Notes: generated by a model from the sequence alone, not told the origin. Counted from the stretch's first letter, positions 16,451-30,991 are shown. The stretch: 31,013 bases of DNA from a virus (IMGVR_UViG_3300013009_000019:1-31013); one strand, 5' to 3'. Translations and numbers: made by a program.

Positions 16451-16873
16451 ATGGCGAGCTACGTGTACCCTGCGATTTTCGAGCCCTATGAGGATGGCTC
16501 GTATGTCGTCTCATTCCCGGACCTTCCGGGATGTGTGACCCAAGGCGATGACTTAGAAGACGCTCTGCGCATGGCGCAAGAAGCAATGGCCTTGCACCTT
16601 TACGGCATGGAACGTGATGGCGACGTGATTCCAGCGCCCACAGATGCGTCCAAGGTTGTCATCCCCGCAGATGCGAACCCAGGTGCGTTCGTGACACTCA
16701 TTCACGCGCGTACGGAGCCCATTCGTGATGAAGTGATGAACCGGGCTGTCAAAAAGACGCTGACGCTCCCAAGATGGCTAAACGATGCAGCCGAAGAGGC
16801 AGGGCTGAACTTTTCCCAAGTCCTCCAACGCGCGCTGAAGGAGGAACTTGGTGTCGTCGAATTCAAACCTTGA
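16451..16873 (+). CDS. hicB: HicB-family antitoxin
   Basis: ATG 16451 has GGGAGG eight bases upstream. The 140-aa protein has the HicB N-terminal partial RNase H-like domain (YPAIFEPYEDGSYVVSFPDL, then GCVTQGDDLEDAL and AQEAMALHLYGM) and a C-terminal ribbon-helix-helix segment (KKTLTLPRWLNDAAEEAGLN, then SQVLQRALKEELG). The first domain blocks HicA; the second binds DNA, probably at the palindrome at 16185-16205. Toxin before antitoxin is the usual hicAB order. The strong ribosome binding site fits the need for antitoxin excess. The gene ends 22 bases before the convergent late-activator gene; a hairpin there (16883-16897) has no T-run. Confidence 0.92.
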   Translation: MASYVYPAIFEPYEDGSYVVSFPDLPGCVTQGDDLEDALRMAQEAMALHLYGMERDGDVIPAPTDASKVVIPADANPGAFVTLIHARTEPIRDEVMNRAVKKTLTLPRWLNDAAEEAGLNFSQVLQRALKEELGVVEFKP

Positions 16874-24396: not shown

Positions 24397-24621
24397 TTAC
24401 GCCGTTTCGTTTGACGGTGTAGAATGATGAAGTAAAACGTCATCAATGCTCAGTTCCAACATCTCGGCCAATTGAATCAATCGTTGGGGTCGTAGAACAC
24501 TCTCGCCGTGCTCATATCTCTGGTATGCGCGAAGGGATATTCCCAAGCGCTCTGCAACGTCGCGCTGAGTGAGTTTGTGCGCCTCGCGGGCGTGACGGAC
24601 GTTTTGTCTCACCGGCTTCAC
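24397..24621 (-). CDS. Cro-like XRE regulator, inner switch (74 aa)
   Basis: It starts at GTG 24621 with AAGGTGG upstream and is the first gene of the leftward operon. The HTH is clear: VRHAREAHKLTQRDVAERLG, then ISLRAYQRYEHGESVLRPQR. The short length (74 aa) and no extra domain match Cro-type antirepressors. Divergent from it is a second XRE gene at 24723. The intervening 101 bases hold two palindromic operators and a strong leftward promoter. It probably binds those operators and competes with the divergent repressor to favour lytic development. Confidence 0.85.
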   Translation of the reverse strand: MKPVRQNVRHAREAHKLTQRDVAERLGISLRAYQRYEHGESVLRPQRLIQLAEMLELSIDDVLLHHSTPSNETA

Positions 24622-24640
24622 ATCACCACCACCTTAGCTT

Positions 24641-24663
24641 CATGTGAACTTTAAGCTCACATG
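24641..24663. promoter_or_regulatory. Operator 1, inner switch
   Basis: The 23-bp near-palindrome CATGTGAACTTTAAGCTCAC plus ATG shares the core TGARCTTTAAGYTCA with operator 2. It overlaps the likely -35 region of a rightward promoter whose -10 is TAGAAT at 24671-24676, and lies near the start of the leftward transcript. Confidence 0.75.
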
Positions 24664-24671
24664 TTGGTTTT

Positions 24672-24700
24672 AGAATACATGAGCTTTAAGTTCATGTCAA
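24672..24700 (-). promoter_or_regulatory. Leftward early promoter with operator 2 in its spacer
   Basis: On the minus strand TTGACA (24700-24695), 17 bases, then TATTCT (24677-24672). The palindrome ACATGAGCTTTAAGTTCATG (24677-24697, plus T) exactly fills the spacer, so a bound repressor would exclude RNA polymerase. It drives the XRE gene at 24621 and probably the whole leftward operon. Confidence 0.8.
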
Positions 24701-24722
24701 GCGGTACGAAGGAGAATTTGCA

Positions 24723-24941
24723 TTGGCTTCCTTCGCCGAACGCTTGTCCGAACTTATCGCTGCACGCGGCGTGCAGAAGAAGGAGTTAGCTGAGTATCTT
24801 GGCATTTCGTATCGAAACCTTCGCCATTACGAGACTGGAGAACGAAAACCCGACTTCGATGGACTCCTCAAACTTGCCGATTTCTTCGATGTGTCTATCG
24901 ACTACCTCGTCGGTCGGAGTGACGACCCGGAAAGGAAGTGA
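24723..24941 (+). CDS. XRE-family lysogeny repressor, inner switch (72 aa)
   Basis: It starts at TTG 24723 with GAAGGAG eight bases upstream. The protein is a single HTH domain (LSELIAARGVQKKELAEYLG, then ISYRNLRHYETGERKPDFDG) with a C-terminal FFDVSIDYLVGRSDDPERK typical of short XRE repressors. It faces away from the Cro-like gene across a two-operator region. The next gene starts six bases downstream. It has no RecA-sensitive cleavage domain, so induction may use an ImmA/IrrE-type peptidase, present further right. Which of the divergent pair is the repressor and which the Cro-like partner is inferred from orientation. Confidence 0.8.
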   Translation: MASFAERLSELIAARGVQKKELAEYLGISYRNLRHYETGERKPDFDGLLKLADFFDVSIDYLVGRSDDPERK

Positions 24942-25665: not shown

Positions 25666-25893
25666 CTAAGCAGAGTGGTCATTCAGTAACGATTCGTCAC
25701 CGTCAGCTTCGAAAAATCGGGTCCAGTCAAACCCAAGTACATTTGCAATCCGCTTAGCGACTTTGACACTAGGTCGCCTGTTACCATTCGCGATCATCGT
25801 GTAGTAATGTCGACTGATTCCGGCTCGAGCCGCTACTTGCTCGTGGGTCATGTTCTTGTCCTTCCGAATGCGCTCGAGCCACTCATTCGTCAT
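25666..25893 (-). CDS. Cro-like XRE regulator, outer switch (75 aa)
   Basis: ATG 25893 (MTNEWLERIRKDKNMTHEQV) has AGGAGGTGG upstream; a longer start would lie inside operator sequence. The HTH continues AARAGISRHYYTMIANGNRR, then PSVKVAKRIANVLG. The C-terminus is acidic (FFEADGDESLLNDHSA). It is divergent from the XRE gene at 26039. Its own promoter is overlapped by a perfect-type palindrome. In layout it duplicates the inner switch but with different operator sequence, so the two should not cross-regulate. Confidence 0.82.
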   Translation of the reverse strand: MTNEWLERIRKDKNMTHEQVAARAGISRHYYTMIANGNRRPSVKVAKRIANVLGFDWTRFFEADGDESLLNDHSA

Positions 25894-25907
25894 GGTATCC
25901 ACCTCCT

Positions 25908-25922
25908 GTAACGGATCGTTAC
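25908..25922. promoter_or_regulatory. Operator 1, outer switch
   Basis: GTAACGGATCGTTAC at 25908-25922 is a near-perfect palindrome. It lies right at the start of the leftward transcript, immediately upstream of the ribosome binding site of the gene at 25893, and shares the half-site GTAAC with operator 2. Confidence 0.75.
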
Positions 25923-25926
25923 CCAA

Positions 25927-25955
25927 ATGATAAGTAACGATTCGTTACTAGTCAA
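25927..25955 (-). promoter_or_regulatory. Leftward promoter of the outer switch with operator 2 in its spacer
   Basis: On the minus strand TTGACT (25955-25950), 17 bases, then TATCAT (25932-25927). The palindrome AGTAACGATTCGTTACT (25933-25949) is exactly the spacer. This repeats the geometry of the inner switch with an unrelated operator. Confidence 0.8.
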
Positions 25956-25962
25956 GATCGAA

Positions 25963-26014
25963 GTTACACTTTGTTACTAGTTGTTTATTGTCACACGATG
26001 TTACGGTATCTAAT
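25963..26014 (+). promoter_or_regulatory. Further half-sites and probable rightward promoter region, outer switch
   Basis: GTTAC half-sites occur at 25963-25967, 25973-25977 and 26000-26004. TTGTCA (25988-25993) and TATCTAAT (26007-26014) are candidate promoter elements, but their spacing is not ideal. AAGGAGGTGAGC at 26019-26030 then serves the gene at 26039. Confidence 0.45.
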
Positions 26015-26038
26015 GTCTAAGGAGGTGAGCGCTGGCCA

Positions 26039-26458
26039 ATGCTTGGAGAACGGCTCCGTCGTCTGAGAGAACAAAAGAAGATGACCCAAAACGATGTCGC
26101 AAAGTACCTCGGCATCACTCGTCCGGCGTACACCCAATACGAAAACGACGTGCGGAAGCCGGATCCTGATACATTGGCCAAGTTAGCTGAGCTTTTCTCT
26201 GTGTCAATTGACTATCTCGTAACAGGAAGGGAACTAGACGAACGAACTGACGGCAGCACCCGTACGTCGCCTGTATCTCCCGAACAAGCCGAATTCCTTA
26301 AATGGGTCGAAGAGAACCTCGAAGGTGCCTTCTTCTACGAATTTCACGGCACGCCCGACGAGATGAAGGAAGAAGCGATGGAGACGTTGCGATTATGGTG
26401 GGAAATGGAGAAGCGGAGGTTGGAGCGGCGCAAAAAGATGCAGGACAAGCAGGGGTGA
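26039..26458 (+). CDS. XRE-family repressor, outer switch (139 aa)
   Basis: ATG 26039 has AAGGAGGTGAGC upstream. The HTH is LRRLREQKKMTQNDVAKYLG, then ITRPAYTQYENDVRKPDPDT, followed by LAELFSVSIDYLVTGRELDE. The C-terminal 65 residues (EQAEFLKWVEENLEGAFFYE, then FHGTPDEMKEEAMETLRLWW) match the pattern of Bacillota phage repressors with a helical oligomerisation tail. It is longer than the inner repressor. Directly downstream, seven bases away, begins the unknown gene at 26465, so the repressor probably leads the cargo operon and regulates it through the GTAAC palindromes. Confidence 0.85.
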   Translation: MLGERLRRLREQKKMTQNDVAKYLGITRPAYTQYENDVRKPDPDTLAKLAELFSVSIDYLVTGRELDERTDGSTRTSPVSPEQAEFLKWVEENLEGAFFYEFHGTPDEMKEEAMETLRLWWEMEKRRLERRKKMQDKQG

Positions 26459-26464
26459 GATTGC

Positions 26465-27283
26465 TTGGAGTTAAATCTTCTTGAGATTTTGCGTTCCTTC
26501 TTTCCTCAAGTTGATGAACAAAAGCTGAGGGAAGCTACAGAAGAGGCGCTGTCAACATACTATTCGAAAGCAAAACCATACGTAGATGTAGCCAACCTGC
26601 GTTCTTGGTATGAATGCTTGCCTTCGCATGCTCGCAAGATCGTCGAACCGATGGCAGAAGAAAAAGTCATCGAGTTGCATCGCACCCCACACAGCTTCCT
26701 GGAACGATGTGCCTTAGCCATATTGAATGAGTTGTCCGATACCAAGCTTGCACGCGAGATCGTGGAGTTCGCTTTATCGCTTGATGGTCTTTCCTACACA
26801 GACGAATACTTTTTGCACATAACGCTATGGCGGATTCTCGAACGTGAGTTTCCAGAGTACACCCGAGATAAGGCCGAAGCGTTCGTGAAGACGTTCAGGC
26901 GCGTTGTAGACCATATCCCGAAATTTAAAGAAGAATATGATCCGAGCCAATTGCGTGGACGGCACCTTCCAGCGGAGCTTTTCATTGAGGCTTTAGAATA
27001 TCTCGGACGCACTGAAGAAGCAGAGAAGTATCGGGTTTTCAAAGAACAGCATGGATTTATTCCGCAACTGAGTGAACAAGATTTGTACTACATCGAGCGC
27101 CAACGTAGGCTAAATGAGGTGGTCTTAGACTACGTACGCAATCATCCTGGATGTATGCAAAGCGAGATTTATGATAAATTCCCGGATTACAGACAGTGGG
27201 AGATACGTGATGCGTTGAAGTATCACGAAAATATCAAGCGAGTGAAACAGGGAAGAACCTATAAACTTTACGCTTCGAATTGA
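26465..27283 (+). CDS. Unknown cargo protein with a C-terminal winged-helix-like domain (272 aa)
   Basis: TTG 26465 has GGGGTGAGA upstream, seven bases after the repressor stop. The first 210 residues are almost entirely helical (MELNLLEILRSFFPQVDEQK, then LRSWYECLPSHARKIVEPMA and ALSLDGLSYTDEYFLHITLW), with no catalytic motif visible. The last 60 residues (RRLNEVVLDYVRNHPGCMQS, then EIYDKFPDYRQWEIRDALKY) form a winged-helix-like unit ending in strands (IKRVKQGRTYKLYA). I do not recognise the family. Base composition is visibly more A/T-rich than the phage core. It precedes a Beta-family gene by 40 bases in the same direction, suggesting joint function as sensor, regulator or partner. Confidence 0.7.
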   Translation: MELNLLEILRSFFPQVDEQKLREATEEALSTYYSKAKPYVDVANLRSWYECLPSHARKIVEPMAEEKVIELHRTPHSFLERCALAILNELSDTKLAREIVEFALSLDGLSYTDEYFLHITLWRILEREFPEYTRDKAEAFVKTFRRVVDHIPKFKEEYDPSQLRGRHLPAELFIEALEYLGRTEEAEKYRVFKEQHGFIPQLSEQDLYYIERQRRLNEVVLDYVRNHPGCMQSEIYDKFPDYRQWEIRDALKYHENIKRVKQGRTYKLYASN

Positions 27284-27323
27284 TTTATCGCAATAATATT
27301 GATTCCGAGGGGCGTGGTATACA

Positions 27324-28391
27324 ATGTTTGGTCCAAACCATTACGTGCCGATCTTGAAATCCAAGCGGGCTGAATTCAAAGCTCTTTCGATGCTCAAGCC
27401 GAAAGCGCAATTGCTGTATACCCCACTATTTGAATTCGTGGGTCAAGTTGAAGACGAAGACAAGATGCGGCGATCTATTGAACAATTCGCGGAGCGACTG
27501 CTCAATTTCGTAGGTACCGAACACAAATTCTTCGTTGATCTGAAACGAGTAAATTTGTCCATCTCAGTTGGAGGACATTCACTTACTCAGTATCTGTTCG
27601 AAGAACTGCGAAGAAACCAACTAAAAGCAATACCGGTTACGGGTCTAAGCCGGGATCTGAATTACCAAAGCGACATCCGCCGTGTTCATTCCACAGATAA
27701 ACTTGGAATTTGTCTTAGACTTACGCCAGCCGACTTTACAAACACATGTGCCATCGAGAGTTTGATTTATTTGCTCGATTGTAGTGCATCCGAGGTCGAC
27801 TTGATCATCGACTTAGGACACATAGATGAAAACATGTTGCCTCTTTTGAAAATGAGCGTGATAGACTTGCTGTCCCGATTACCCTCACTTCTAGAATATC
27901 GAACTTTCACGCTTGCCGGATCCTCATTTCCATCTTCTATGGGAAATGTAAGCACCTATTCCGTTACATACATACCTAGAGTCGAATGGGAATTGTGGAA
28001 ACATTTATATCTATCACGCTCGTCTTTACCTCGCATTCCCTCGTTCTCGGATTATGGTGTGGATAACCCAAATCCGCTCGAAGACTTTGATCCAAGAACT
28101 ATGAAAATATCGGCGAACATCCGATACACGTGTGAAGAGAACTGGATAATCTTCAAAGGCGGAGATTTGCGAAAAGGGAAAGGACACGACCAGTATTTCG
28201 ATTTGGCTTGTGACGTCACACACCATACGTGTTATGCAGGTCCTGACTTCAGTTGGGGAGACGCAAGGATTCTCTCATATGCAAAGAAAGAACCGGATAA
28301 AGGCGGAACGCCTGGTACGTGGAGAGAAATTGCATACAATCATCACATTGAATATGTCATTCACCAGATCTCCAACCTTTCCTGGCCTTGA
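27324..28391 (+). CDS. Beta-family protein (355 aa), candidate defence component
   Basis: ATG 27324 begins MFGPNHYVPILKSKRAEFKA, the characteristic start of Beta-family proteins (HYVPILKxKxxExxAL), followed by LLYTPLFEFVG. The pattern of alternating strands and helices (FFVDLKRVNLSISVGG, then AIPVTGLSRDLN and SEVDLIIDLGHIDENML) suggests a TIM-barrel-like fold. The C-terminal half has SANIRYTCEENWIIFKGGDL and the closing EIAYNHHIEYVIHQISNLSW. From memory, the family is named for Beta of satellite phage P4, part of the gop-beta-cII module reported to protect against phage. Its end overlaps the convergent sce7726-type gene by 35 bases. Codon composition is A/T-richer than the phage core. Family confidence is good; role is inferred. 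Confidence 0.78.
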   Translation: MFGPNHYVPILKSKRAEFKALSMLKPKAQLLYTPLFEFVGQVEDEDKMRRSIEQFAERLLNFVGTEHKFFVDLKRVNLSISVGGHSLTQYLFEELRRNQLKAIPVTGLSRDLNYQSDIRRVHSTDKLGICLRLTPADFTNTCAIESLIYLLDCSASEVDLIIDLGHIDENMLPLLKMSVIDLLSRLPSLLEYRTFTLAGSSFPSSMGNVSTYSVTYIPRVEWELWKHLYLSRSSLPRIPSFSDYGVDNPNPLEDFDPRTMKISANIRYTCEENWIIFKGGDLRKGKGHDQYFDLACDVTHHTCYAGPDFSWGDARILSYAKKEPDKGGTPGTWREIAYNHHIEYVIHQISNLSWP

Positions 28392-28926
28392 TCCGCTCCA
28401 ATACAAGATTGGCCAACTCAGGAACAGGGAGTGAGTTGGCCAATCTTGACCAAATTTCCGATCGAGGTTTAGTCCTCACCCCTCGATCAAGTCCTAAGCG
28501 CTCTAACACTTGGAGTGCCTCTTCACGCCAAAGTAGCTGCACTATGGCATACGGATCAAGGCTCGGATTCTCACGAGGAGGCCGTTCTTCATAAAAATCG
28601 ATTCGAGTGTCACATTCCGCAGGAACGCAAATCCCCCACCAGTCAGGGACGATGTTGCGCACCTGTTTGACATGCTCCTCTGCAGCAACAATGACTACCC
28701 GGTTAAGCACCTTGGAATACGTCTCTTGCTGAACAGGAAGGCGTTCCAGCGTATCCCGAGGGCTCTTGATTTCATATCCGGTTAATATGCCATTAACAAC
28801 TGCGACATCAACACGAGACGAACCTTGACAAAGACCGAGCTCATCTATGATAAGCGTATCAGGCTCATGTGCATGCTGCTCTCGAAGTTCGCGATGCAGA
28901 GCCTCACGAATGTCCTTGTCACGCAT
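28357..28926 (-). CDS. sce7726-family predicted PD-(D/E)xK nuclease (189 aa)
   Basis: ATG 28926 follows AGGAGGGG; GTG 28932 is too close to it. The N-terminus MRDKDIREALHRELREQHAH, then PDTLIIDELGLCQGSSRVDV and AVVNGILTGYEIKSPRDTLE shows a classic nuclease-like core: acidic E in the first helix, D at the strand (SRVDVA) and E-x-K (YEIKS). Further family signatures are RLPVQQETYSKVLNRVVIVA and VPDWWGICVP. These match the sce7726 family, often encoded beside Beta-type or sce7725-type proteins. The gene is on the opposite strand to the Beta gene, convergent with it and overlapping by 35 bases. It has its own promoter and palindromic operator at 28961-28993. Nuclease activity is predicted, not shown. 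Confidence 0.82.
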   Translation of the reverse strand: MRDKDIREALHRELREQHAHEPDTLIIDELGLCQGSSRVDVAVVNGILTGYEIKSPRDTLERLPVQQETYSKVLNRVVIVAAEEHVKQVRNIVPDWWGICVPAECDTRIDFYEERPPRENPSLDPYAIVQLLWREEALQVLERLGLDRGVRTKPRSEIWSRLANSLPVPELANLVLERIKARKGWRSGE

Positions 28927-28960
28927 GCACACGCCCCTCCTAAGCTACAGAAGCCCTCAT

Positions 28961-28993
28961 GACTAATTTAGTCTCACCTGATTACCTGGTCAA
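28961..28993 (-). promoter_or_regulatory. Promoter of the sce7726-type gene, overlapped by a perfect palindrome
   Basis: On the minus strand TTGACC (28993-28988), a 17-base spacer, then TAAATT (28970-28965). The perfect 13-bp palindrome GACTAATTTAGTC (28961-28973) covers the -10 and likely start site, so this promoter is probably repressed by an unidentified dimeric protein. Confidence 0.65.
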
Positions 28994-29080
28994 GAAATCG
29001 CGATTGTTTCCCTCTTCCATTTCTCCTGGAGATGCATTACAATACGAACACATGTTCCTTTGGCGCTGTGGGAGGGAAAC

Positions 29081-29653
29081 ATGTACAGGCACCTAGACTC
29101 CGCAATCGAACGGTACTATCGCCAGCACAACATTTGCTTTCCCCATGACATCGACCTCGAAGCACTTGCGGAAGAAAACGGCATCCCAGTGCGTTATCTC
29201 CCGCGCTCATCCAAAGCCTACGAGCTCAAAGGCGGGCGGCATCTGATCATCGTCGACAGCCGTGTGGATTATCGGCAGCAACGCGTCGAGCTCGCCCACG
29301 AACTCGGCCATGTACTGCTCCACACCGGCACGCAATGGCACCTACCAGCTCTATTCCGAGTCAAAGAAGAACGACAAGCCGAGCACTTCGCGATGTGCGC
29401 CCTGGCGCCCACCTTCATGCTCTTGCCGATGATCGAAGAAGGCGCGGACCGTCGCGTGCTCGCAGCAAGGCTTGCCGATGAGTTTCGCGTACCGGAAGCG
29501 TTCATGGACCGACGTCTGGACCTCTTGCGCGCGCAACTAGAGTACGCGCCTTCGCGAGCGCGTCTGCAAATCGCCGAGTCGTGCGCCCGATACGGATTTG
29601 CCGTGTGGATCACCATCGCTCTGTCGACCTTGGGCGGTTTGGCCGCATGCTGA
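29081..29653 (+). CDS. ImmA/IrrE-family metallopeptidase (190 aa)
   Basis: ATG 29081 has GGGAGGG six bases upstream; an upstream TTG is in frame but not needed. The protein contains QQRVELAHELGHVLLHTG with the HExxH zinc motif, then EERQAEHFAMCALAPTFML, in which the downstream Glu supplies the third ligand. This is the ImmA/IrrE pattern: in ICEBs1 ImmA cleaves the ImmR repressor to induce excision. Here no XRE gene is directly adjacent; the nearest are the two switch repressors 3-4 kb left. A C-terminal hydrophobic stretch (FAVWITIALSTLGGLAA) might be a membrane segment, unusual for ImmA. It ends 15 bases before the integrase start and may be cotranscribed with it. Confidence 0.9.
   Translation: MYRHLDSAIERYYRQHNICFPHDIDLEALAEENGIPVRYLPRSSKAYELKGGRHLIIVDSRVDYRQQRVELAHELGHVLLHTGTQWHLPALFRVKEERQAEHFAMCALAPTFMLLPMIEEGADRRVLAARLADEFRVPEAFMDRRLDLLRAQLEYAPSRARLQIAESCARYGFAVWITIALSTLGGLAAC

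Positions 29654-30917: not shown

Positions 30918-30991
<74 letters not shown>

Follow-up and report, generated by a model that had tools for sequence, protein, structure and literature searches.

The virus record IMGVR_UViG_3300013009_000019 of IMG/VR (31,013 bases, analysed over its whole length and referred to here as the window) carries at 26039-28993 a block of four genes that an earlier reading of the DNA, the original prediction, had proposed as candidate phage-defence cargo: an XRE-family repressor, a 272-residue protein, a Beta-family protein and a convergent nuclease of the sce7726 type. All four open reading frames (ORFs) are present as described. The conserved core of the block is the pair formed by Beta (27324-28391, plus strand) and the sce7726 family protein (28357-28932, minus strand; likely start ATG at 28926), whose reading frames share 35 bp at their 3' ends (28357-28391). 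We hold the identity and pairing of these two genes with high confidence. The reading that we favour, with a chance that we place slightly above even, is that the block is prophage-borne cargo with a Beta–nuclease anti-phage unit at its centre.

Both family assignments of the original prediction were borne out. Beta matched PF14350 (E 5.5e-68) and, among the PADLOC models, PD-Lambda-2_C (E 8e-60) and beta (E 4e-14). The sce7726 protein scored 179 bits against NF033832 (E 7.9e-53), for which the curated cut-off is 70, and also matched the PADLOC model 'cll', which represents cII of satellite phage P4 (E 6e-28). The E-x-K residues expected of the nuclease were found at E54-x-K56, together with E31, D42 and Q68xxxY72, such that the catalytic motifs are intact; among 54 sce7726 relatives, all of these positions vary little or not at all. 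We take Q68xxxY72 to be a motif typical of RecB-like nucleases. Carrying both the D...ExK and QxxxY motifs, the protein is predicted to be a RecB-like PD-(D/E)xK nuclease. In databases, the Beta and sce7726 genes bear placeholder family names only.

Evidence that the two genes belong together came from their distribution. Scans with sce7726 only, which collected loci by similarity to the window protein, returned 160 loci, of which 80 were viral and the other 80 genomic; besides viruses, they represent Bacillota, Actinomycetota, Pseudomonadota, Acidobacteriota, Myxococcota and further phyla. A convergent Beta was present at all 160 except four cut contigs (L019, L098, L110 and L135) and one further locus, which is considered below. 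Collapsing the set at 90% Beta identity gave 113 pairs, among them that of the window and nine from annotated phages and plasmids that had been reached via Beta. The 3' ends of the two genes overlap in 111 of these 113 non-redundant pairs (median 50 bp), with the overlap in phase 2 in 95 cases, in phase 0 in 16 and in phase 1 never. The distance matrices of the two proteins were strongly correlated (Mantel r 0.73, null maximum 0.125), as expected for co-inheritance. Pattern scans used the sce7726 alignments, that of Beta being too diverse.

The converse survey, starting from Beta, drew on three phyla, with 398, 398 and 297 sampled genomes (1,093 in all), and found a convergent sce7726 gene at 29 of 33 full-length Betas; the other four (L219, L224, L225 and L236) have an M78-peptidase protein encoded directly upstream. 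Among 5,426 E. coli genomes, the pair typical of Rac prophages was detected in 93 and gop-β-cII in 39. The repeated co-occurrence that had been anticipated for Beta and sce7726 is thus nearly obligate, and both families occur in modules reported to be anti-phage.

One such module bears directly on the novelty of the window pair. The gop-β-cII locus of P4 defends E. coli from λ and P1 (PMC9122126), and the P4 record (NC_001609) annotates cII itself as an sce7726 protein; the gene runs convergent to beta and has the integrase next to it. Because of this arrangement, the Beta–sce7726 core is the β–cII half of gop-β-cII without Gop and not a new combination, contrary to what the original prediction had supposed. 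The two loci share a Beta homologue, a convergent sce7726/cII gene, a nearby integrase and a terminator-like hairpin between the two genes. They differ in that the window proteins are only ~21% (Beta) and ~24-25% (cII) identical to those of P4, that P4 cII bears a C-terminal extension, that the P4 genes lie 27 bp apart whereas those of the window overlap, and that the window has its own XRE switch and an orphan 272-residue gene instead of Gop. The PADLOC gop model was unmatched in the block, while P4 Gop, as a positive control, matched at E 5e-70.

Comparison with PD-lambda-2 gave a similar picture. The window Beta fits component C, and many PD-lambda-2-like loci also possess a convergent sce7726 gene. 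For component A (HigB-like), however, neither a PADLOC match in the block nor such an ORF upstream of the window Beta was found. Component B, an XRE-M78 fusion, was likewise unmatched by PADLOC in the block, the gene upstream of Beta being the 272-residue orphan; an XRE protein and an M78 protein of the window are encoded by separate genes, one on either side. In two E. coli PD-lambda-2-like loci, a SIR2 family or unknown gene, not sce7726, lies convergent to Beta (L240, 5208-6725; L241, 5380-6333). The Rac-type prophage pair of E. coli (Rac-SA53, KU052037) resembles the window in being a convergent, overlapping Beta–sce7726 pair within a prophage; it has no upstream operon partner, and its Beta and sce7726 proteins are 31% and 42% identical to those of the window.

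A more distant parallel is the sce7726-sce7725-RES operon of Bacillota (NF033832, NF033831), in which sce7726 stands beside a distant relative of Beta. It differs from the window in that the genes are in tandem on one strand, the sce7726 protein has ~285 residues and the third gene encodes a RES-domain protein. Four Bacillota loci (L211-L214) have a long sce7726 (~285 residues) and sce7725 in tandem, three of the four with a 355-364-residue protein (shorter in L213); the third protein carried a RES domain in both of the two operons scanned. These operons have the look of another class built on this core, with a different effector. A literature search, with many subscription papers (including the 1990 work on P4) outside it, returned no paper on the Beta–sce7726 pair as such.

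The published systems also offer a different account of the block, namely that it is a toxin–antitoxin or addiction module in which one member is toxic, the pair stabilises the prophage and protection against phages is secondary. In P4, Gop is reported to be toxic without beta (PMC9122126), PD-lambda-2B is reported to be toxic alone (PMC9519451), and tight gene linkage of the kind seen here is typical of such modules. However, the toxic members Gop and PD-lambda-2B are both absent from the window block, and in PD-lambda-2 the Beta component, C, is required for defence and dispensable for neutralisation of the toxin (PMC9519451). We consider this account unlikely, although it fares best of the alternatives to a Beta–nuclease defence unit.

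An AlphaFold2 model of Beta reached a mean predicted local distance difference test (pLDDT) score of 95.8, and nearly all of the top matches in a fold search with this model were triosephosphate isomerase (TIM) barrels, with Z up to 13.2; Beta is therefore confidently modelled as a (beta/alpha)8 TIM barrel. Across 83 Betas, that of P4 among them, residues E17, D163, D243 and H341 do not vary, and the conserved polar residues are positioned at or near strand ends. From the alignment, this pattern of conservation looks more like an active site than the surface of an antitoxin. The sce7725 proteins of Bacillota retain E17, D243 and H341 in seven of seven cases and D163 in six of seven; the profile–profile match between Beta and sce7725 spans only 38 N-terminal columns.

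The TIM-barrel matches include tRNA-guanine transglycosylase (TGT), which aligned with Beta over ~260 residues at Z ~12. This raises the idea of a unit resembling restriction-modification, in which Beta modifies or marks self DNA and the sce7726 nuclease cuts unmarked DNA; the placement of the conserved polar residues and the near-obligate pairing with a nuclease would both suit it. TIM barrels nevertheless share a fold without sharing a function: the TGT match has only 6-9% identity, aldolases and TrpA score equally, and no sequence-recognition domain was seen. We regard a unit of this kind as improbable.

Whether the remaining genes of the block belong to the unit was judged from what lies upstream of Beta elsewhere. 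A co-directional ORF of at least 80 residues ending within 250 bp of Beta was present at 43 of the 113 pairs, some of these ORFs probably being chance ones, and absent from the other 70, which include the Rac-prophage pair of E. coli. The recurring partners are mostly proteins with an M78 peptidase domain (18, of which ~16 resemble XRE-M78 proteins of the PD-λ-2B type); others are Gop and an FRG-domain protein. The FRG-domain gene lies directly upstream of Beta, and overlaps it, in Granulicella (L107, L233), and its product is a possible further type of effector. Five of eight near relatives of the window Beta that were examined had no co-directional upstream partner (Cohnella, Paenibacillus, Pseudobacteroides and a viral contig).

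In the window, the XRE gene (26039-26458, plus strand; HTH_3 E 3e-19) is the first of three genes on one strand. It is followed after 6 bp by the 272-residue gene (26465-27283, plus strand, TTG start), which encodes a mostly helical orphan, and both are in line with Beta. Neither gene recurs as a neighbour of Beta at the 113 non-redundant loci, such that the shared neighbourhoods looked for on the strength of the original prediction exist for the Beta–sce7726 pair and not for these two genes. Searches for relatives of the 272-residue protein gave only short, weak matches among viral contigs, 85k genomes, phages, plasmids, 398 Bacillota genomes and the PDB, the scans of viral contigs and of the 85k genomes reaching close relatives only. 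The C-terminal winged helix proposed for it received weak support from a match of residues 217-270 to phrog_1324 (E 4e-4) and from a single-sequence model that was poor overall (pLDDT 53) and reached 75-86 in the C-terminal region. Identification of this protein as Gop was rejected, as the PADLOC gop match is absent.

These neighbourhoods also bear on the model put forward by the original prediction, in which the XRE, 272-residue, Beta and sce7726 genes are a single new four-gene defence system whose repressor restrains the nuclease until infection. The 6-bp spacing of the first two genes in line with Beta, the operator-like sites upstream of the XRE gene and the low G+C content common to all four would fit such a system. 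Against it, the 272-residue protein has no relative beside other Betas and no convincing one elsewhere, most of the near relatives of the window Beta examined stand without an upstream partner, and the nuclease is encoded on the opposite strand at a distance from the operators. We give a four-gene system of this kind, with a regulator holding off the nuclease, little credence. Since most pairs have no co-directional upstream gene, the 272-residue gene does not recur and five of eight near relatives are partnerless, the Beta–sce7726 pair is best taken as the unit, with the XRE and 272-residue genes as a local operon.

The XRE and 272-residue genes probably make up a local, regulated operon that follows a divergent switch and its operators. 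The window has two distinct divergent XRE switches next to each other, at 24397-24941 and 25666-26458, and their operator palindromes differ, being TTAA-centred at ~24642-24697 in the first and of the form GTWAC-N5-GTWAC at 25908-26004 in the second. The other half of the second switch is an XRE-family regulator on the minus strand (25666-25926; HTH_3 E 9.9e-14), and the four operator-like sites at 25908-26004 are situated between and just inside the two divergent genes. The GTWAC-N5-GTWAC pattern occurs five times in the window against 0.66 expected, a count reached in 0 of 100 shuffles. All such sites in the window lie near 25.7-26.0 kb and none by the start of the nuclease gene, which leaves the earlier suggestion that the nuclease is under an operator unsupported for this type of site. 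Other short palindromes are found near the nuclease start (28961-29057). A promoter scan detected two candidates where 4.3 were expected and was uninformative.

Where the two genes converge, a perfect 17-bp inverted repeat with an 11-nt loop (28404-28448, inside the sce7726 gene) begins 13 bp 3' of the Beta stop codon, with RNA-fold z values of -5.7 and -4.8 on the two strands. Such hairpins are enriched across the family: in 12 of 112 cases one of at least 10 bp was present within 100 bp 3' of the Beta stop codon, compared with ~15 of 2,640 in other bins (Fisher p 1e-10, a guide only as the loci are related), and the P4 record marks a terminator at the corresponding place. The hairpins are probable terminators or blocks between two convergent transcripts; that of the window is not a standard intrinsic terminator, because it has no T run.

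Beyond the nuclease, an M78 (ImmA/IrrE) metallopeptidase gene with an HELGH motif (29060-29653, plus strand; PF06114 E 1.9e-17) adjoins the integrase. In a comparison with the ImmR-ImmA and CapH-CapP pairs, in which a peptidase of this type acts on an XRE repressor, the XRE protein encoded at 26039 matched capH (E 2e-10) and the M78 protein matched capP (E 2e-11), but 2.6 kb separate their genes and further XRE genes exist in the phage. Membership of the M78 gene in the block was not adopted, given its phage-like G+C content of 59.6% and the presence of M78 beyond sce7726 in only 2 of 113 loci. The gene probably belongs to the phage lysogeny module, and its product is a possible regulator of XRE repressors. 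Another account makes the block an additional phage switch, for lysogeny or superinfection regulation, whose other genes merely hitchhike and play no part in defence. It would suit the full divergent XRE switch, complete with operator-like sites, ahead of the block and the M78 peptidase and integrase behind it. However, the pair spans many phyla, and of 104 representatives, viral and genomic, only 4 have an integrase resembling that of this phage in the vicinity, so that the pair is not tied to such lysogeny modules; we consider this account very unlikely.

The block is A/T-richer than its surroundings, as the original prediction had noted, with a G+C content of 44-52%; the window as a whole is at 59% and the structural genes are at 62%. 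A tRNA-Cys gene at 30918-30991, just 3' of the integrase, is a likely attachment site. The only other copy found, contig IMGVR_UViG_3300013008_000012 (L002), matches the window at 100% identity over 12.5 kb and was for that reason not counted as independent evidence; it ends at the same base as the window. Elsewhere in the phage genome, a HicB-like antitoxin family protein is encoded at 16451-16873.

We propose that the conserved core, in which Beta, a predicted enzyme with a TIM-barrel fold, is paired with a RecB-like nuclease encoded convergently and overlapping it at the 3' end, would protect the lysogen. The nuclease would attack incoming phage nucleic acid, and Beta would serve as its obligate partner, licensing or restraining it or acting on the same nucleic acid; this division of work is proposed with low confidence. 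Beta would be expressed behind the divergent XRE switch, in an operon with an orphan winged-helix protein as a local addition, and the hairpin 3' of Beta, which resembles a terminator, would keep the transcripts of the two convergent genes apart. Defence by Beta–sce7726 is probable, on the analogy of P4 and PD-λ-2.

Several observations weigh against a Beta–nuclease defence unit. The published systems carry extra components (Gop; HigB plus HigA-peptidase) that are absent from the window locus, and defence by the pair alone is for that reason an extrapolation. In P4, gop and beta are reported as a likely toxin–antitoxin pair (PMC9122126). One sce7726 locus with enough flanking DNA (L078) has no detectable Beta and is the sole true exception among the 160, and about half of the sce7726 genes in Bacillota have no PF14350 neighbour. 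More distant sce7726 proteins may behave differently from those sampled, as the loci were chosen by similarity to that of the window. Finally, a sequence search of the PDB with the sce7726 protein found no relative.

A wider proposal, tentative and with a chance somewhat short of even, is that Beta–sce7726 alone may be a widespread two-gene anti-phage system, comprising a TIM-barrel enzyme and a RecB-like nuclease, and the common chassis of gop-beta-cII, PD-lambda-2-like and sce7725-sce7726-RES loci, which would be supplemented by various effectors (Gop, XRE-M78 peptidase, FRG, RES). Beta would then be an enzyme and partner of the nuclease, not an antitoxin, and the phage studied here would add an orphan winged-helix component under its own switch. 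If this is true, two separately described defence systems would have one common core, and Beta, so far called an antitoxin, would turn out to be a nuclease's enzymatic partner. Direct questions would follow: what role cII and its E-x-K residues have in gop-β-cII defence, and how important the TIM-barrel residues of Beta are.

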